Of a DNA stretch of 64,000 bases, positions 50,458 through 58,541 are shown in pieces; the first letter of the stretch is position 1; every line of letters begins with the position of its first letter. Both the position numbers and the translations under genes were made by a program. This DNA comes from Ignavibacteriales bacterium. GTDB taxonomy: Bacteria; Bacteroidota; Ignavibacteria; Ignavibacteriales; Ignavibacteriaceae. The notes beneath the pieces were generated by a model. The model was not told the origin of the DNA. It did not search any database and saw only the letters and a list, made by a program, of their open reading frames with translations. Location of the stretch: positions 909,448 through 973,447 of the forward strand of contig CP054182.1 of assembly GCA_015709675.1 (NCBI GenBank), written 5' to 3'.

Positions 50458-50539
50458 CGGCGCAAGTTACATAATAAAAGGGTTATAATTCAAGGGATAT
50501 CGGAGGGGAACCACTGAAGTTTTTATTGGTTAATACGGT

Positions 50540-50584
50540 AAACCGCCAAAACCGCCAAAACCGCCAAAACCGCCAAAACCGCCA
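50540..50584 (+). repeat. Five tandem copies of AAACCGCCA
   Basis: Five identical 9-bp units, a minisatellite upstream of the VapB-like antitoxin gene. Perfect copies suggest a recent expansion. Confidence 0.95.
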
Positions 50585-50675
50585 GATTGCCATCCAGAGG
50601 AAGCGGGGCAAAATGAACTTTACAAATTCCGGGTTAAAACGTATTTTGCATACCAGTTCAGGTTTGGAGCGAAAA

Positions 50676-50927
50676 ATGAATATAAATTATACAATAGACG
50701 ATCTTTATAATGATATAAAAAACCTGCCGCCCGAAATAATTCCGCAGGCGGGTGTAATCTTGCGCACCCTAATCAGTACTTACGATGCTGCTAATAAAGA
50801 ACTTCATAAACCCGGTTTGAAAGAATCTCTTTCCGGTATCTGGAAGGATGACCGCAGTGCTGAGGAGATTATCAATGAAATCCACGAAGCCAGGTCTGGT
50901 TATGGACTCAGAGATGTAGATTTATGA
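50676..50927 (+). CDS. Antitoxin of a VapBC-like pair
   Basis: 83 residues from ATG 50676 (MNINYTIDDLYNDIKNLPPEI). The same frame stays open back to about 50526 through the 9-bp repeats, but that extension is repetitive and not conserved-looking. It ends SGYGLRDVDL; SGIWKDDRSAEEIINEIHEAR resembles antitoxins placed before PIN-domain toxins. Its stop overlaps the toxin ATG (50924) by 4 bp, a classic toxin-antitoxin arrangement. Confidence 0.75.
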   Translation: MNINYTIDDLYNDIKNLPPEIIPQAGVILRTLISTYDAANKELHKPGLKESLSGIWKDDRSAEEIINEIHEARSGYGLRDVDL

Positions 50928-51325
50928 AGTATTTGTTAGATACAAATATCTGCATATAACTTAAAAGAGGGGATAAGGTTGTATTGGGAAGCATAGACAA
51001 GGTTGAAAGGAATCTGGTTTTCATTTCATTCATAACTCTTAGTGAACTTTACTACGGAGCATATAAATCGGTTCGTCAGCAGGAAAACCTTAATGCTGTT
51101 GCATTTTTGGCTTCAAACATACAAGTTATTGGATCTACTACTGAAATAGCAGAAGTTTTCGGAAAAATAAAAGCCGGATTGATTAAAAGGGGACGAATTA
51201 TTGATGATGCTGATATATTTATCGCAGCAGCGGCTATAACAAATGAATTAAGCCTTGTAACCAATAATATTAAACATTTTGAAAATATTCCCGGGATCAG
51301 ACTGGAGAACTGGAAGAAAAATTAA
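50924..51325 (+). pseudogene. PIN-domain (VapC-like) toxin with nonsense codon
   Basis: ATG at 50924 reads MKYLLDTNICI, the PIN active-site start with its first Asp (D-T-N), then TAA at 50957-50959, then continues in frame LKRGDKVVLGSIDK, ELYYGAYKS (conserved Glu), IDDADIFIAAAAI (third and fourth acidic residues) and SLVTNNIKHFENIPGIRLENW. All other landmarks are intact, so a single base change (probably TAT/TAC to TAA) has cut the gene. A restart at GTG 50981 or later would lose the first catalytic Asp. Probably inactive, leaving the antitoxin intact. Confidence 0.88.
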
Positions 51326-51611
51326 TTTGATTAATCAGCGGTCTAACCGGAATGAAAGAAGTGGAAACGTACTGGGAAAGATGTATAAGCATACTTAGCT
51401 AAAATAATTTGCGGCACGCGTAAATTCAAACCTTAAGAACCATCCGGAAATTAATTTAACCACTGCAGGATTGGCTGGCTTATTACGTGAAGTCTGAAAC
51501 CAGATTGCTTGAATAAAGATCAGGTCAGGGCAAAAAAACAGTACTATGACTCTCAACCTCAAAAAATATTTTGGATTTCATCTGCCGGAGAGTTTAATTT
51601 CGACTGAAGAA

Positions 51612-51725
51612 ATGAAAATAGTTTTAACACAAACCAATAATAAAACCGATTTGCTGTGCGTGAAGCTCCTCTCTGCTTCTGCGCACCACCATCATCATCT
51701 CCACCGACACCAGCACCACTGCTGA
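51612..51725 (+). CDS. His operon leader peptide
   Basis: 37 codons: ATG 51612, stop TGA 51723-51725. The peptide ends SASAHHHHHLHRHQHHC: nine His codons among the last thirteen, five of them consecutive. It lies 108 bp before hisG on the same strand and is followed by a terminator-like hairpin. This is the classic leader of attenuation-controlled his operons; stalling on scarce His-tRNA would prevent the terminator. A start at GTG 51660 (MKLLSASA) is also possible. Confidence 0.9.
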   Translation: MKIVLTQTNNKTDLLCVKLLSASAHHHHHLHRHQHHC

Positions 51726-51743
51726 GTATCTGACGCACCCTTT

Positions 51744-51762
51744 TGCCGTTTCTGAAACGGCA
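51744..51762 (+). terminator. his attenuator hairpin
   Basis: TGCCGTTT-CTG-AAACGGCA followed by GTTCTCTCTT. It lies 18 bp after the leader stop and 72 bp before hisG. The U tract is interrupted. GTGCG (51658) could pair with CGCAC at 51686 or 51734, a possible basis for the alternative structure. Confidence 0.75.
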
Positions 51763-51833
51763 GTTCTCTCTTAACATACAAAGCAACCAACTCACTATTA
51801 AGGATCATTATATGTATCCGGAAAATTTTTTTT

Positions 51834-52703
51834 ATGAATAACCGTCTTCAAATAGCCATACAGAAAAAAGGCCGTCTGGCCGACAGATCATACGAACTGC
51901 TTAACCGCTGCGGTGTTGAATATGAAAACCACAGTGATAAACTTCATATCAGCTGCAGCTCGTTTCCTGTTGATCTGCTGCTCCTCAGGGATGATGATAT
52001 ACCGGAATATGTGCAGGACGGAGTGGCTGATCTGGGCATAGTCGGGGAAAATACCATAGCAGAGCGTGAGACAATAGAACTAACGCCGGTCAGAAAACTC
52101 GGTTTCGGAAGATGCCGCCTCTCCATTGCAGGTCCGGAATCAGAAGCGGTTAGTTCACTGCAGGAAATGGAGGGGAAAAGAATAGCAACTTCCTATCCGC
52201 GGCTGCTTAAAAGGTATCTTGCAGCAGAAGGTATTTCGGCGGAGATTGTGGAGATCAGCGGTTCGGTCGAAATAGCGCCCTCAATTAAAATAGCTGATTA
52301 TATATTTGATATCGTATCAACAGGTAACACACTCCGTTTTAACAGGATGGCAGAGTATTTTCCTCTGATGCAATCGGAGGCAGTGCTGATACAATCATCC
52401 CGCAGTCAGTTCAATCAGGAAAAGGAAGCGATACTCGGACAGCTGCTTGGAAGAATAGACTCAGTCCTCCGCGCCAAAGCATCCAAATACCTGATGATGA
52501 ATGCAAAAAAAGAACAGCTGTCCAATATCCTACGGCTCCTCCCCTCAATGAAAAGTCCCACCATTCTTCCGCTTGCGGATGATACCATGGTTTCGGTTCA
52601 TGCCGTTATTCCCGCGGAGCGGAGATGGGAGCTGATGCAGAGTCTTCAGTCATCGGGTGCATCAGGGATTCTGGTATTACAAATAGACAATCTGGTGCCA
52701 TGA
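51834..52703 (+). CDS. hisG: ATP phosphoribosyltransferase, long form
   Basis: 289 residues, the long (HisG_L) form with a C-terminal regulatory domain. LQIAIQKKGRLADRSYELL is the PRPP/ATP-binding start; DDDIPEYVQDGVADLGIVGENTI and the phosphate-binding loop IVSTGNTLRFN are typical. The C-terminal ~80 residues (PTILPLADDTMVSVHAVIPAERRWELM) form the ACT-like histidine-binding domain, so feedback inhibition is expected in addition to attenuation. It does not need HisZ. First committed step; the stop overlaps the hisD start (ATGA). Confidence 0.96.
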   Translation: MNNRLQIAIQKKGRLADRSYELLNRCGVEYENHSDKLHISCSSFPVDLLLLRDDDIPEYVQDGVADLGIVGENTIAERETIELTPVRKLGFGRCRLSIAGPESEAVSSLQEMEGKRIATSYPRLLKRYLAAEGISAEIVEISGSVEIAPSIKIADYIFDIVSTGNTLRFNRMAEYFPLMQSEAVLIQSSRSQFNQEKEAILGQLLGRIDSVLRAKASKYLMMNAKKEQLSNILRLLPSMKSPTILPLADDTMVSVHAVIPAERRWELMQSLQSSGASGILVLQIDNLVP

Positions 52704-53986
52704 AAATATATACAGAAAATAAACTGAGCAGGGAAGCCCTTGCGAAACTCACCGGACGTAAAGCCTCCGCCCCTGGTTCCGTAATGCCTGAGGTCCGAAG
52801 AATTATATCGGATGTAAAAAGAAACGGATTCAGTGCCGTTCAGCGCTACAACAAACGATTTGATAACAACTCATCACCGGTTCTGAAAGTCAGTGCACGG
52901 GAGATGAATAAGGCGGAGGGTGAGCTCTCCCCTCAGCTGAAGCAGGCAATGAAGGCCGCATACGAAAATATCACCAGATTTCACGAGAAGCAGAAACCGG
53001 CAGGATATACGATAAGTACGATGCCGGGAGTGCGCTGTTCTATGGAATACCGTCCGATAGAACGGGCAGGGCTTTATATACCGGGAGGAAGCGCACCGCT
53101 TCCTTCTACCATGCTGATGCTGGGGATACCCGCAAAGATTGCCGGATGTAAAGAGATTTCTGTTTTCACTCCTGCTCCGGAGGGACGGGTTCATCCGGCA
53201 GTCCTTTATGCAGCAAAACTTTGCGGCATCACGGCGGTGTTTAAAGCGGGGGGAGCACATGCCATAGCCTCTGCTGCGTACGGAACAGAGCAGAACAGAA
53301 AGGTATATAAGATATTCGGACCGGGTAACCGGTACGTAACCGCTGCAAAAATTCTGGTGAGCAGTGATCCGGAAGGAGCAGCAATTGACTTCCCGGCTGG
53401 TCCGAGCGAAGTTCTGGTGATAGCGGATGAAAAGGCTAACCCGGTATATATAGCCGCAGACCTGCTTTCTCAGGCGGAACACGGGCCCGATTCACGGGCT
53501 GTCTGTCTGGTCTTTTCAGAGAAAAAAGCAAAGGAAGTCGCGGCTGAAACAAGAAAACAGCTAACACTTCTGCCGCGAAAAGAAATTGCTGCGCAAGCGT
53601 TACGGAACTCTTTTATTCTGGTATGCAGAAATATTGAGTCAGCAATTGCATTTTCAAACGAAACAGCGCCGGAACATCTAATACTGAATATGGAACAACC
53701 GGAGAATTATCTTCCGTTTATCAACAACGCAGGGTCGGTGTTCCTTGGAGCGTATTCACCGGAAAGTGGGGGAGACTATGCTTCGGGAACAAATCACTCG
53801 CTGCCAACAGAGGGATACGCTAAAGTATACGGCGGAGTTACAGTGAACTCATTCATGAAAAGCATGACGGTGCAAAAAATAACAAAAAAGGGAATTGAGG
53901 CACTCGGAAAAACAGTAATAACCCTGGCGGAGGCCGAGGGGCTGGAAGCACATGCCAGAGCGGTGAAAGTGAGAATGCAGAAATGA
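52700..53986 (+). CDS. hisD: Histidinol dehydrogenase
   Basis: 428 residues from ATG 52700, which overlaps the hisG stop; a longer frame upstream is not needed. Landmarks: [64 protein letters not shown] (zinc ligand His) and SGTNHSLPT. It carries out the last two oxidations from L-histidinol to L-histidine with NAD+ and Zn2+. The stop overlaps the hisC start. Confidence 0.96.
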
Positions 53987-55041
53987 GCATTAAACTGCTT
54001 GTAAGAGAAAATATCAGGGAACTGAAGCCTTATACCTCCGCGAGGGATATATATACATCGGGAATACTGCTTGACGCGAATGAAAATCCGCGGAGCATCC
54101 TGGAAAAAAATTATCCCGGCATTTCCCGCTATCCAGACCCGCATCACAGGAATCTGCGGGAAAAACTGGCTGCTTATCACGGAATCAGTCCCGCGCAAAT
54201 CCTTGCGGGCAACGGTTCTGATGAACTGCTGGACTTATGCATCAGGGTTTTTTGTGCACCGGGTAAAGAAAGCGCTCTGATTATAGAGCCGACTTACGGG
54301 ATGTATAAAACTTTATGTGAAATTAACGATATCAGGGTGATAATCTGCGTTCCTGAGGAGATATACGAACCGGATATGAAGCAGGCTGCAGAAGCAATAG
54401 AAAAGAATACCAAAATTGCATTTATCTGTAACCCGAACAATCCCACCGGGGGGCTTATTTCTCCCGGTTTCATAGAGGGGCTTCTGAAGCGGCCGGGAAT
54501 GATGGTTGTCTGTGATGAGGCATATATAGACTTTGCACCCAAAGGTTCAGCGCTGCCGTTACTGGCGAAATACAATAATCTTATTATACTCAGAACTTTC
54601 TCTAAGGCATGGGGGCTGGCGGGAATCAGGTGCGGTTATATAATAGCCCATCCGGAAGTGATACACTATCTGGAAGCAGTGAAGTACCCTTATAACGTTA
54701 ACCGTATTACTCTCTCCCTTGCTGAGAGAGCGTTGGATAATCTGAATATGAAGGAAGAGCTGATCACCAGCCTCATTTCAGAACGGGAGCGGATTACGGC
54801 TTTTCTTAAGGAGCTGAAAGGCGTTGAAAGAGTTTTTCATTCTGATGCAAACTTTATTCTTTTCCGCTCACCTCATTCAGGGTATATATTCAACCGGCTT
54901 GCGGAAAAGGGAATCATCATACGGGACAGGAGTTCACAACCGGGACTCAGCGGTTGTCTCCGTGTAAGTATAGGCCTTCCTGCAGAAAACGACAAATTTA
55001 TGAACATAGTAAAAGAGGTTCTTAATGAAACTGCTGATTGA
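53983..55041 (+). CDS. hisC: Histidinol-phosphate aminotransferase
   Basis: 352 residues, class II PLP fold. NENPRSILEKNYPG and GNGSDELLDLCIRVFC are typical; CNPNNPTGG and VVCDEAYIDFAP place the Asp of the PLP pyridine site, and ILRTFSKAWGLAGIRCGY contains the Schiff-base Lys. It converts imidazole-acetol phosphate to histidinol phosphate. ATGA overlap with hisD and 17-bp overlap with hisB indicate tight co-translation. Confidence 0.96.
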   Translation: MSIKLLVRENIRELKPYTSARDIYTSGILLDANENPRSILEKNYPGISRYPDPHHRNLREKLAAYHGISPAQILAGNGSDELLDLCIRVFCAPGKESALIIEPTYGMYKTLCEINDIRVIICVPEEIYEPDMKQAAEAIEKNTKIAFICNPNNPTGGLISPGFIEGLLKRPGMMVVCDEAYIDFAPKGSALPLLAKYNNLIILRTFSKAWGLAGIRCGYIIAHPEVIHYLEAVKYPYNVNRITLSLAERALDNLNMKEELITSLISERERITAFLKELKGVERVFHSDANFILFRSPHSGYIFNRLAEKGIIIRDRSSQPGLSGCLRVSIGLPAENDKFMNIVKEVLNETAD

Positions 55042-55891
55042 TGCCGGGATTATGTCTCTCGAGAAAGAGCCGCTTAAGGGCTTGTTCTCAGGCATAGTTT
55101 TGCTGCATAGAAATAATGTCACCATTCAGACAAAAAGAAAAATTACAGATAAAACTATTCTCCGCCTTCTTGACTCAGAAGGGATACAGCTGAGTGTTGG
55201 AAAAACGGCAGATTATTCACTGGAAATGAGCAACGCCGGAGTTAAGCTTACGCCGCCGGGAATTCAGGTTTCTGATTTCAAAGAAGTAACAGAATTTCTG
55301 CTCAGTAAAAAACGAACAGCAGCAAAAGAAAGAACAACGGCGGAAACTTCCATTCTGGTATCGCTCAATCTTGACGGAACGGGTAAAGCAGAGATAGAAA
55401 CCGGCATCGGATTTTTTGACCATATGCTCAGCCAGATAGCCAGGCATGGCAATATTGATCTGGTAATCCGCTGCAAAGGTGATCTTCATATAGATGAGCA
55501 TCACACTGTGGAGGATACCGGTATTGTTCTGGGAGAGGCGCTGCTTGAAGCGCTGGGAGATAAAAAGGGAATAAAGCGGTACGGCTATATTGTTCCGATG
55601 GATGACTGTGTCGCAGCCTGTGCAATTGATCTGGGAGGCAGGATCAGTCTTATCTACAAAGCCAATTTTAAGAGAGAAAAAATCGGTGATTATGCAACCG
55701 AACTCACGGAAGAATTTTTCCGCGGGCTTGCTTCCGGACTGAAAGCCAACATTTATATAAAGGCGAAGGGAAAAAACGAACATCACAAAGCAGAGTCCAT
55801 CTTTAAAGCATTTGCGAAAGCGCTTAATGAAGCATGCAGAATGGATGAGCGTTCAGGAAATACTCTCCCTTCAACCAAAGGAGTATTATGA
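55025..55891 (+). CDS. hisB: Imidazoleglycerol-phosphate dehydratase with atypical N-terminal domain
   Basis: 288 residues. Residues about 100-288 are a full IGPD domain: GIGFFDHMLSQIARHG, HIDEHHTVEDTGIVLGEAL, GYIVPMDDCVAACAIDLGGR, EFFRGLASGLKANIYIKAKGKNEHHKAESIFKAFAKAL, with the metal-binding H-x-x-x-H and E-H-H motifs. The N-terminal ~98 residues (MKLLIDAGIMSLEKEPLKG...) do not contain the D-x-D-G-T-L motif of the HAD histidinol phosphatase normally fused here in bifunctional HisB. They are either a degenerate HAD remnant or an unrelated domain. No other histidinol phosphatase is in the operon. Confidence 0.93.
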   Translation: MKLLIDAGIMSLEKEPLKGLFSGIVLLHRNNVTIQTKRKITDKTILRLLDSEGIQLSVGKTADYSLEMSNAGVKLTPPGIQVSDFKEVTEFLLSKKRTAAKERTTAETSILVSLNLDGTGKAEIETGIGFFDHMLSQIARHGNIDLVIRCKGDLHIDEHHTVEDTGIVLGEALLEALGDKKGIKRYGYIVPMDDCVAACAIDLGGRISLIYKANFKREKIGDYATELTEEFFRGLASGLKANIYIKAKGKNEHHKAESIFKAFAKALNEACRMDERSGNTLPSTKGVL

Positions 55892-56475
55892 TAGCCATTA
55901 TAGATTACGGCGCAGGCAACACTGCCTCGGTTGCCAATGCAGTAAAGGATATTACGACTGATGTTGTGATTACTGCAGATATCTCTCTCCTGAAAGATGC
56001 TGACAAAATTATTCTCCCCGGTGTAGGTGAGGCCTCTGCCGCAATGGAAAATTTGAAGAGAAGCGGAACGGCGGAATTTCTGAAAGACACGAACAAGAGT
56101 GTGCTGGGTATATGCCTGGGAATGCAGCTTCTTGGAATTTCATCGGAGGAAGGAAGTGCGGATTGTCTTGGATTAATAGATTACCATACAGTGAGGTTCA
56201 GGGGGGAACATATACGGATTCCTCACATGGGCTGGACCCGGATTTCCTTCTTTGAAGAGTCTCTTTTGTTTAAGGGGCTGAAACAGAACGAATTCTTGTA
56301 CTTTGCGCATTCTTATTATGTGCCCGGATGTGTATATACAACTGCTGAGTCTGTGCATGGCGGGGTTTTCTCGGCTGCCGTGCAAAAGGAGAATTATTTT
56401 GGAGTGCAGTTTCATCCCGAAAAATCTGGTGAAACAGGATTAACCATCATAAGGAATTTTATAGAACTATGCTGA
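55888..56475 (+). CDS. hisH: Imidazole glycerol phosphate synthase, glutaminase subunit
   Basis: 195 residues. Class I glutamine amidotransferase triad: Cys in VLGICLGMQLLG, His in VQFHPEKSGETG and the Glu two residues later. The oxyanion strand LPGVGEA is present. It supplies ammonia to HisF. ATGA overlap with hisB and 7-bp overlap with hisA. Confidence 0.96.
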   Translation: MIAIIDYGAGNTASVANAVKDITTDVVITADISLLKDADKIILPGVGEASAAMENLKRSGTAEFLKDTNKSVLGICLGMQLLGISSEEGSADCLGLIDYHTVRFRGEHIRIPHMGWTRISFFEESLLFKGLKQNEFLYFAHSYYVPGCVYTTAESVHGGVFSAAVQKENYFGVQFHPEKSGETGLTIIRNFIELC

Positions 56476-57188
56476 TAGTGCCTGCTATTGATATATTGAA
56501 TAATAAAGCAGTCCGCCTGCTAAAAGGGGACTTCGGGAGGATGACGGTTTATTATGAAGATGCTTTTGAGCCGGTAAGGCTGTTTTATGAGAGCGGATTC
56601 AGGAGAATGCATCTGGTTGATCTTGATGCCTCACGGACAGGTAACATTACGGCTGACACTCTGGTCAGGCGCATTAAGCAGGAAACCGGCTGCAAGATTC
56701 ATTTTGGCGGCGGAATAAGAAGCAGTGAGCAGATTGAACTGCTTCTTAACGCCGGTGCGGATAAAATTATAACCGGTTCGCTGCCTGTTACGGATCCTGG
56801 TTTGTTTGAAGAGATGGTAAGAGAATATGCCCCGGAATCATTTATTATCGCAATGGATTTGCTAGAAGATAAGGTTAAAATAAAAGGATGGACAGAGACC
56901 GCTGCTGTTTCCGCCGGGGAACTTATCAGTTTCGGATTGCAGCTCGGGATAAGGGAATTCCTCTGTACTGATATATCCCGTGACGGAACTCTTGAGGGAC
57001 CCTCTCTGGATCTTTATAAACAGCTTATGAAAGAATATCCGGAAATGACGCTGATAGCATCCGGGGGTATCGGGAGCATGATTGATATATATGATCTTGA
57101 GAGCATCTCCGTACCGATGGCGGTCGCGGGTAAGGCGATTTATGAAAAAGCAATTTTATTAGAGGAGCTGAAGCGCTATGCCGGTTAA
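56469..57188 (+). CDS. hisA: ProFAR isomerase
   Basis: 239 residues, TIM barrel. VPAIDILNNKAVRLLKGDFG with the catalytic Asp, HFGGGIRSSEQIELLLNAGADKIITGS (phosphate site), and DISRDGTLEGPSLDLY with the second catalytic Asp. Isomerises ProFAR to PRFAR. Overlaps hisF by 11 bp. Confidence 0.96.
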   Translation: MLIVPAIDILNNKAVRLLKGDFGRMTVYYEDAFEPVRLFYESGFRRMHLVDLDASRTGNITADTLVRRIKQETGCKIHFGGGIRSSEQIELLLNAGADKIITGSLPVTDPGLFEEMVREYAPESFIIAMDLLEDKVKIKGWTETAAVSAGELISFGLQLGIREFLCTDISRDGTLEGPSLDLYKQLMKEYPEMTLIASGGIGSMIDIYDLESISVPMAVAGKAIYEKAILLEELKRYAG

Positions 57189-57933
57189 GAGAATTATTCC
57201 CTGTCTGGATATTAAAGACCGCCGGGTGGTTAAAGGAGTAAACTTTGTTAATCTGAAGGACGCCGGTGATCCGGTTGAACTGGCGTCGCGTTATTATGCT
57301 GAAGGCGCGGATGAGCTGGTGTTTCTCGATATAAGTGCATCAGACGAAAAACGAAGGACAATGAAGGAACTGGTTACGGAAATTGCATCCGTGCTCAGGA
57401 TTCCGTTTACCGTCGGGGGAGGAATATCATCGGCCGCAGATGTAGAAGCTCTTCTCAGGGCAGGAGCTGATAAGGTATCGCTTAATACTGCCATTGTTAA
57501 AAATCCGGGTCTGATAACAGAAGCGGCAAAGGAGTTCGGATCGCAGGCGGTGGTTGCCGCTATTGATACCAGAAATACTCAGGAAGGGAAGCGGATATAT
57601 ATTAACGGGGGCAAGGTACCGGCTGGACTGGAAACCATCAGCTGGTGCCGCGAAGCGGAGGGACGGGGAGCCGGTGAAATTCTTCTCACTTCAATGGACA
57701 GAGACGGTACCCGCAGCGGATTTGATCTGGAGGTGCTGCGGGAAGTCTGTGCCGCGACCACCATTCCGGTGATTGCATCAGGCGGTGCGGGATCGTATGA
57801 GCATTTCAGGGAAGTGTTTGTTTCTACCCAATGTGAAGCAGCCCTTGCGGCGGGGCTTTTCCATTCGGGAGAGATGGGGATAGCTTCGTTAAAACAGTTT
57901 CTTACGGAAAACGGAATTGAGGTACGGTTATGA
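57178..57933 (+). CDS. hisF: Imidazole glycerol phosphate synthase, cyclase subunit
   Basis: 251 residues, TIM barrel. RIIPCLDIKDRRVVKGVNF with the catalytic Asp, VGGGISSAADVEALLRAGADKVSLNTA, and SMDRDGTRSGFDLEVL with the second Asp; ASGGAGSYEHF is the second phosphate site. Works with HisH. Four-base overlap with hisI/E. Confidence 0.96.
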   Translation: MPVKRIIPCLDIKDRRVVKGVNFVNLKDAGDPVELASRYYAEGADELVFLDISASDEKRRTMKELVTEIASVLRIPFTVGGGISSAADVEALLRAGADKVSLNTAIVKNPGLITEAAKEFGSQAVVAAIDTRNTQEGKRIYINGGKVPAGLETISWCREAEGRGAGEILLTSMDRDGTRSGFDLEVLREVCAATTIPVIASGGAGSYEHFREVFVSTQCEAALAAGLFHSGEMGIASLKQFLTENGIEVRL

Positions 57934-58541
57934 ATATATATGATAAGCTTGATTTTGCAAAGGGAAACGGACTGATTGCGGCAATGGTTATTGACCACGA
58001 AACTAAATCACCCCTGATGCTGGGATATATCAGCCGGGAATCGCTTGAGAAAACTTTTGAAAGCGGCAGAGTAACTTTTTTCAGCAGAAGCCGTAAGGAG
58101 CTATGGCTGAAGGGAGAGACCTCGGGTAACTATCTCAGTTTTGTGTCAGTTCATCCCGACTGTGACGGCGATGCGGTGGTGATCTATGCCAGACCCGCCG
58201 GACCGGTCTGCCATACGGGTTCTTATTCCTGCTTTGAGGGCACTGAAACATCAGCGCAGGGAGAGTCATTCTTATATACGCTAGAGAAGATTATCGGTAA
58301 ACGGAAAGAAGAGCTGCCGGAAAATTCTTATAAAGCAAAGTTATTCGGAAAAGGAATTCCCCGCATTGCGCAGAAGACCGGTGAAGAGGCAGTGGAAACC
58401 GTCATCGCGGCAATGAAACAGGACAGGGAAGAACTGATATCAGAAGCTTCTGATTTGCTGTATCATTTAACGGTACTGCTGACCGCTTCCGGAGTCTCGC
58501 TTGCTGATGTTGAGAGTAAACTGCGGGAGAGGCACCGATGA
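57930..58541 (+). CDS. hisI: Bifunctional PRA-CH/PRA-PH
   Basis: 203 residues, a HisIE fusion. The N-terminal cyclohydrolase (to about residue 110) has TFFSRSRKELWLKGETSGNYL and HPDCDGDAVVIYARPAGPVCHTG with the Zn/Mg Cys and His residues. The C-terminal pyrophosphohydrolase (about 112-203) has GKGIPRIAQKTGEEAVETVIA and SDLLYHLTVLL. Last gene of the operon; no clear terminator directly follows. Confidence 0.95.
   Translation: MNIYDKLDFAKGNGLIAAMVIDHETKSPLMLGYISRESLEKTFESGRVTFFSRSRKELWLKGETSGNYLSFVSVHPDCDGDAVVIYARPAGPVCHTGSYSCFEGTETSAQGESFLYTLEKIIGKRKEELPENSYKAKLFGKGIPRIAQKTGEEAVETVIAAMKQDREELISEASDLLYHLTVLLTASGVSLADVESKLRERHR

Follow-up and report, generated by a model that had tools for sequence, protein, structure and literature searches.

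The his operon (hisGDCBHAFIE) of an Ignavibacteriales bacterium, carried on the 64,000-nucleotide stretch of DNA analysed here (the window), is preceded by a short histidine-rich ORF (51612-51725, + strand) and a hairpin, which together are likely to constitute a ribosome-mediated transcription attenuator. The leader is probably a histidine gauge that lets the his genes be read under histidine shortage. This is a known type of control in a new example, in which the window has a weaker and oddly built switch.

The operon runs from hisG to hisIE on the + strand (51834-58541), and every gene overlaps its successor. The gene hisG (51834-52703) encodes the long form of the enzyme (PF01634, PF08029, TIGR00070, TIGR03455) and is followed by hisD (52700-53986, PF00815), hisC (53983-55041, assigned from PF00155 and operon position), hisB (IGPD; 55025-55891, PF00475 at aa 126-267, with NCBIfam matches beginning at aa 75-101), hisH (55888-56475, PF00117 and operon position), hisA (56469-57188) and hisF (57178-57933), both assigned from PF00977 and operon position, and hisIE (57930-58541, PF01502 and PF01503). 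The N-terminal ~95 residues of HisB (55025-55312) have no Pfam match, the bifunctional HisNB model aligns only from model residue 148 on, and within the family a weak relative of this stretch occurs only in genome G173 (2 of 80 genomes, counting the window's own). Upstream of the leader lies a PIN-domain, VapC-like gene (50984-51325), preceded by an ORF of 133 aa (50526-50927) with no Pfam or NCBIfam match; these two genes are perhaps a toxin-antitoxin pair.

The genome is a single contig of 4.21 Mb, and its first characterization as Ignavibacteria-like was right. In a HisG tree (73 of 138 proteins used), the HisG of the window groups with the HisG proteins of Ignavibacteriales (joint group 98/93), which include loci titled Melioribacter roseus and Ignavibacteriales bacterium. 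Its exact place there is unsure because its branch is long (1.17, versus a median of 0.25); its best relatives share 57% identity in the family and 56% in the other family of the order. Given this grouping, a transfer of the his operon is not needed to explain its presence.

The leader ORF, as read from the sequence and its ORFs, begins at ATG 51612 and ends at TGA 51723-51725, and encodes a peptide of 37 aa (MKIVLTQTNNKTDLLCVKLLSASAHHHHHLHRHQHHC). Nine His are found within its final 13 residues, with codons at 51684, 51687, 51690, 51693, 51696, 51702, 51708, 51714, and 51717 (His run 51684-51719, + strand), so that the 37-codon ORF of the preliminary description held, in coordinates and content, when the sequence was re-read. 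Dinucleotide shuffling of 51412-51833 (2000 times) never gave more than five His in 13 residues, a value reached by five shuffles. The leader frame is also open from an upstream ATG at 51546, which would give a product of 59 aa. Overlap with the best promoter candidate makes this start less likely, although that candidate is itself weak: the sequence of Bacteroidota type at 51546-51574 (+; ATGAC, 16 nt, TATTTTGG) matches 9 of 11 consensus positions, and at least nine matches were also reached by 93 of 430 shuffled relatives. A scan for sigma-70 promoters yielded two against 1.9 expected, no excess over chance. The tetra-His sequence CAYCAYCAYCAY occurs 22 times in the genome, including two overlapping occurrences inside the leader ORF; inspection by eye of the other 20 places, over the whole genome, revealed no second leader ORF of this kind, and a second His leader at any of those places was rejected.

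A short His-rich ORF upstream of the his operon is expected of an attenuator of this type, and the one at 51612-51725 recurs before hisG in relatives, as had been set beforehand as a test. The survey covered the 43 genomes with HisG among 80 of the family, the 49 with HisG among 149 sampled from the class, and the best 80 named loci of a scan. A leader was counted when an ORF of up to 60 codons, with at least four His in 13 residues, had its stop 30-260 nt before the HisG match. On this basis, it was found in 36 of the 41 usable loci of the family, the window included; G161, whose contig starts at hisG, and G153 (the same as L187), with 82 nt upstream, were left out of the 43. Forty of these 41 loci hold at least three His in 13 residues, L065 being the one locus without any. 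The second family of the same order has the leader in 12 of 12 loci, and the rest of the class sample in 4 of 31 usable loci (L027 and L177 were dropped from the 49 genomes of the class sample for having less than 150 nt upstream). Among the best 80 named loci of the scan, mostly from Bacteroidota, 67 have it, with the proviso that this set includes copies of genomes already sampled (L067 equals L044 in leader and HisG). The reverse-strand control gave 0/41, 0/12, 1/31, and, for the best 80 named loci, 0/80 (1/164 in total), and the dinucleotide-shuffle control 4/410, 1/120, 3/310, and, from the same best 80, 12/800 (20/1640 in total). Judged from these sequences, the leader is conserved within the order and rare in the rest of the class sample.

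These numbers bear directly on whether a His-rich frame and a hairpin merely happen to precede hisG, an explanation that is hardly credible. Tetra-His runs do occur at 20 other places of the genome; however, none of the 2000 shuffles came near nine His, and most loci of the family have a His-rich leader in the same position. A chance origin was rejected on these two grounds.

Several observations on the distribution of these loci can be added. The densest leader seen, ~180-264 nt upstream of hisG in L081 (a contig titled Bacteroidales bacterium), has nine consecutive His (MPLEHLVAHHHHHHHHHDGGNTSCGRLS) and 10 within 13 residues. L108, on a contig titled Candidatus Jacksonbacteria, has a related hisG, preceded at ~90-160 nt by a leader (MKAQFAQIHHHLLIPYMLLKKRQ), a U-tailed hairpin, and an antiterminator strand to match; either the operon was transferred along with its attenuator or the contig was binned wrongly. 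Within the family of the window, 37 of 80 genomes have no HisG match, including 18 of the 49 genomes with completeness of 90% or more and contamination of 5% or less, and histidine synthesis thus seems patchy in the family.

The second element of the proposed attenuator is the hairpin TGCCGTTT-CTG-AAACGGCA (51744-51762, +; 8 bp, -9.8 kcal/mol), which begins 18 nt past the leader stop and before hisG, where it had originally been placed. Its tail is TTCTCTCTT (51764-51772, once a T-G closing pair, 51743-51763, is counted), with six T in nine positions, a poor U tract interrupted by a C in comparison with the U-rich tails of the relatives. Hairpins of -8 kcal/mol or lower with at least six T in the next nine positions number five on the + strand of the window, four of them outside ORFs of at least 110 aa, this one included; a simple terminator scan of 51200-52200 also lists it (two found versus 0.8 expected). 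The region 51612-51833 as a whole folds better than most of its shuffles (z = -2.8; 3 of 200 equally good). Two further hairpins are predicted there: one of -16.4 kcal/mol directly before the His run (51656-51686, +), which may be a pause hairpin, and one of -6.3 kcal/mol across the last His codons and the stop codon (51709-51727, +), designated here the protector hairpin, which is part of this fold.

According to the attenuation model, RNA polymerase would make the leader RNA while a ribosome translates the leader, with charged His-tRNA as the presumed signal. When charged His-tRNA is ample, the ribosome would reach the stop codon and cover the strand around it; the hairpin at 51744-51762 would then form, and transcription would end before hisG. 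When charged His-tRNA is scarce, the ribosome would stall in the His run, leaving the RNA ahead free to pair with the terminator arms, and transcription would continue.

Computation on the relatives reveals a switch-like alternative pairing of this kind. The usual layout in relatives of the order is a leader (for example, MKNLNLHHAFHHHTMHFGCRR), a hairpin (for example, ACCCCGGC...GTCGGGGT) followed by a T run, an SD-like AAAGGA, and hisG some 20-40 nt farther on; the complement of the terminator 5' arm is spelled by the last codons of the leader or by the bases just past its stop. The strand and arm are TGCCGG/CCGGCA in the family, GGTAGGC/GCTTACC in Chitinophagaceae-like loci, and ACTCAAGCG/CGTTTGAGT in Empedobacter. 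In a model with RNA made as far as the terminator loop, the sequestration of the terminator 5' arm averages 0.72 over 81 relatives with the ribosome at the first His and 0.12 with the ribosome at the stop, compared with 0.43 for shuffled strands. Forty of the 81 relatives beat at least 95 of 100 shuffles and 41 did not, L035 and L077 being no better than half of them. In addition, a locus's own strand and own arm pair with a mean energy of -13.2 kcal/mol over 80 loci, versus -8.6 for strands taken from loci with different arms, and in 36 of the 80 fewer than 5% of the foreign strands are equally good. This specificity is weaker in the family of the window, where the GC-rich arms pair with many strands. 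Strand and arm therefore change together across loci, as attenuation predicts.

Both analyses were confined to loci with a hairpin of -8 kcal/mol or lower and at least four T in the next nine positions, plus the window, and their results apply to such loci and do not extend to those lacking the hairpin, such as most of Pedobacter and Mucilaginibacter. Nineteen loci picked by eye, mostly titled with these two genera (L074, L075, L082, L085, L088, L094, L095, L101, L105, L106, L107, L109, L113, L130, L133, L137, L138, L142, and L144), carry a His-rich leader ~150 nt upstream of hisG without a U-tailed terminator of the usual strength. They show two small conserved hairpins, one over the end of the leader and the other around GTTTCTACGTGAAA; 4 of the 11 predicted pairs have changed on both sides. 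These loci possibly use a different output mechanism.

The window itself departs from this scheme. Its classical antiterminator reaches -3.5 kcal/mol, the weakest of 80 loci (mean of about -13.3 in the 79 relatives), an energy equalled by 821 of 1000 shuffles, and all 73 foreign strands pair with the arm of the window as well as or better than its own classical strand. The sequestration measure, 0.65 at the first His and 0.01 at the stop, looks like that of the relatives and is reached by 19 of 100 shuffles. By these folding models, the switch of the window is weaker than those of the relatives, on account of its modest hairpin, its poor U tract, and this antiterminator.

A different antiterminator, composed of two helices, can nevertheless be drawn. 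In the outer helix, ACTGCTG (51718-51724, +) pairs with the terminator 3' arm CGGCAGT (51758-51764), a duplex of -10.4 kcal/mol for which 73 of 1000 shuffles are equally good. In the inner one, GACGCA (51732-51737, +) pairs with the terminator 5' arm TGCCGTT (51744-51750), at -2.4 kcal/mol alone. With the inner helix enclosed by the outer, the structure is predicted at -12.8 kcal/mol versus -9.8 for the terminator, and it would be masked by the hairpin 51709-51727 until a ribosome covers the left side of that hairpin. Scans of ribosome position, which presuppose equilibrium folding and a fixed front edge, locate the point at which this would happen. With the front edge 13 nt ahead of the first base of the A-site codon, the probability of the terminator is 0.99 for His 1-5, drops to 0.15 at His 6, and is back at 0.98-0.99 from His 7 onward, with 0.99 at the stop codon. 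Front edges of 12-15 nt give the same 0.15 at His 6; edges of 10-11 nt divide the dip between His 6 and 7, and one of 16 nt divides it between His 5 and 6. For edges of 10-15 nt, the terminator stays on (0.98-0.99) during a stall at any of the first five His codons. Of 300 shuffles of 51700-51743, 9 dipped as low, as did 17 of 300 codon-wise shuffles. The modelling is thus suggestive of a two-helix antiterminator that would form only with a stall about the sixth His codon, with marginal statistics. As for folding speed, it favours the terminator over the outer helix, since the terminator 3' arm is made last. The check set at the outset, for an alternative pairing that masks the terminator, thus has only a partial answer: the two-helix form is predicted, marginally with respect to shuffles, and the classical antiterminator is nearly absent.

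Two scenarios have been considered for this unusual arrangement. The first, rather unlikely, is a rebuilt attenuator, in which the protector hairpin would keep the terminator on during stalls at His 1-5, and a stall about His 6 would free a strand that captures the 3' arm, with a nested hairpin holding the 5' arm. If this were true, the leader would answer to an intermediate histidine shortage, unlike the simpler switch of the relatives. The second, which we consider unlikely, is that of a decaying attenuator: an ancestral good switch whose antiterminator and U tract have drifted, leaving little histidine control at the RNA level and the work to HisG feedback. Decay would fit the weak classical antiterminator and the broken U tract, the long HisG branch, the failure to find hisG and hisD in the single same-genus genome (88% complete), and the case of G197 (L047), whose leader likewise has only a weak hairpin. 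On the other hand, the His run of the window is the second longest seen (9 of 13, after the 10 of L081), which would be odd for a decaying leader, and the hairpin, the protector hairpin, and the alternative pairing are all present in the window. Attenuation of transcription is still the best reading of the architecture, given the conserved His leader, even though the poor terminator tail and the near absence of the classical antiterminator, together with the marginal alternative and an unclear promoter, are points against it.

The start of hisG shows features of its own. Translation is placed as beginning at ATG 51834, or possibly at 51812. The latter opens a mini-ORF (51812-51841, +; MYPENFFYE) that lies behind AAGGA (51800-51804), overlaps the hisG start, and contains a run of eight T (T8) at 51826-51833. 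ATG 51812 is the better placed of the two starts and would enter the hisG frame if T8 were one base shorter; moreover, the MYPEN of the mini-ORF resembles the N-termini of HisG from L039 and L045 (MFPGN and MFPLN). This could reflect a slip in sequencing, slippage during transcription, or coupling of the mini-ORF to hisG.

These features have a bearing on whether the leader controls translation instead of transcription, stalling or termination altering access to the hisG start, for example, through a hairpin at ~51802-51819 or through the mini-ORF. This is improbable. It would find a basis in the hairpin of -4.1 kcal/mol over AAGGA and ATG 51812, in the overlap of the mini-ORF with hisG, and in the several relatives outside the order whose His leaders have no U-tailed hairpin. 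However, the fold of 51612-51833 shows no switching pairing between the leader and the hisG start, and within the order the relatives carry a U-tailed terminator immediately ahead of the Shine-Dalgarno sequence of hisG.

Other controls of hisG have been sought as well. Among the 31 usable loci from the remainder of the class, seven have a gene of the TrpR family directly upstream of hisG, each scoring above the Pfam cut-off for PF01371 (L024, L025, L028, L030, L032, and L034 were found by motif search and L031 by eye). The same arrangement is seen in L112, titled Acidobacteriota, and none of these eight loci has a His leader; several of them show a palindrome-like CACTTTA...TAAAGTATG at the start of hisG. 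That such a repressor (HisR) or a T-box controls hisG in the window, with the leader being incidental, is extremely improbable despite the presence of the repressor gene elsewhere in the class, because the genome of the window has no PF01371 match (the control search was positive in E. coli and B. subtilis, 2/14), the seven class loci with the repressor gene lack a His leader, and no T-box match appears in 51300-52100 with the Rfam model at E up to 10. The presence of such a repressor in this genome was accordingly rejected. The Rfam His leader, RF00514, likewise has no match at E up to 10 in 51300-52100 and none at gathering score in 16 relatives, and the identity of the element as a T-box or as the Rfam His leader was discarded on the basis of the searches of that region.

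A second layer of control is expected at the level of the enzyme. HisG holds the C-terminal regulatory domain (PF08029 at aa 214-286; TIGR03455), and the single tRNA-synt_His match in the genome is read as hisS, making this a long HisG without HisZ. Feedback inhibition of HisG is a fair prediction from these two features of the sequence.

Comparison with known systems places the leader in a broader context. For Flavobacterium psychrophilum, strong indications have been reported that leader peptides attenuate amino-acid operons, together with a structured element ahead of hisG that is common to other genera and has no Rfam hit (PMC9723704). The likeness to the present case lies in the same phylum-level neighbourhood, in leader-peptide attenuation, and in the hisG element without an Rfam hit; the difference lies in the organism and in that the main-text section on the hisG element does not describe it as encoding a His-rich peptide. 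In light of this flavobacterial precedent and of the common occurrence of His leaders among the sampled Bacteroidota-like relatives, the notion that a gammaproteobacterial device had been found in an odd place has to be abandoned.

The his attenuator of E. coli and Salmonella (RF00514), as described in PMC9413887, shares with the present case a His-codon run in a short leader ORF, a terminator before hisG, and an alternative pairing. It differs in that its Rfam model matches neither the window nor the 16 relatives; furthermore, the relatives seem to use one strand at the end of the leader as antiterminator, and the arrangement in the window would capture the 3' arm. The His leaders of the Bacillus cereus group, Peptostreptococcaceae, and Erysipelotrichales are also similar: in these groups, which lack HisR and a T-box, his operons follow a His-run leader with a terminator and an antiterminator. 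They belong to Firmicutes and have three to five consecutive His codons (PMC9413887). The relevant passages of that paper describe HisR, T-boxes, and leaders as replacing one another in Firmicutes, and contain no occurrence of "bacteroid". The his genes of the superphylum of this bacterium are the subject of another study, whose main text does not contain the word "leader" (PMC8305728), and reinitiation at leader genes is dealt with in PMC4833913.

Among the matches listed in a search of the open-access literature, no paper on His leaders in Ignavibacteria was found. The abstract of Vitreschak et al. 2004 is said to mention candidate attenuators in Bacteroidetes/Chlorobi among other groups.

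With these results, Ignavibacteriales and much of the sampled Bacteroidota-like neighbourhood join the groups with a His leader peptide that can be read from the sequence, one that no Rfam family covered in the window or in 16 relatives. Within one class, some genomes have a leader before hisG and others a TrpR-family repressor gene, which makes it a clean case of control substitution. The outlier switch of the window, for its part, would test how far an attenuator can drift and yet still work.
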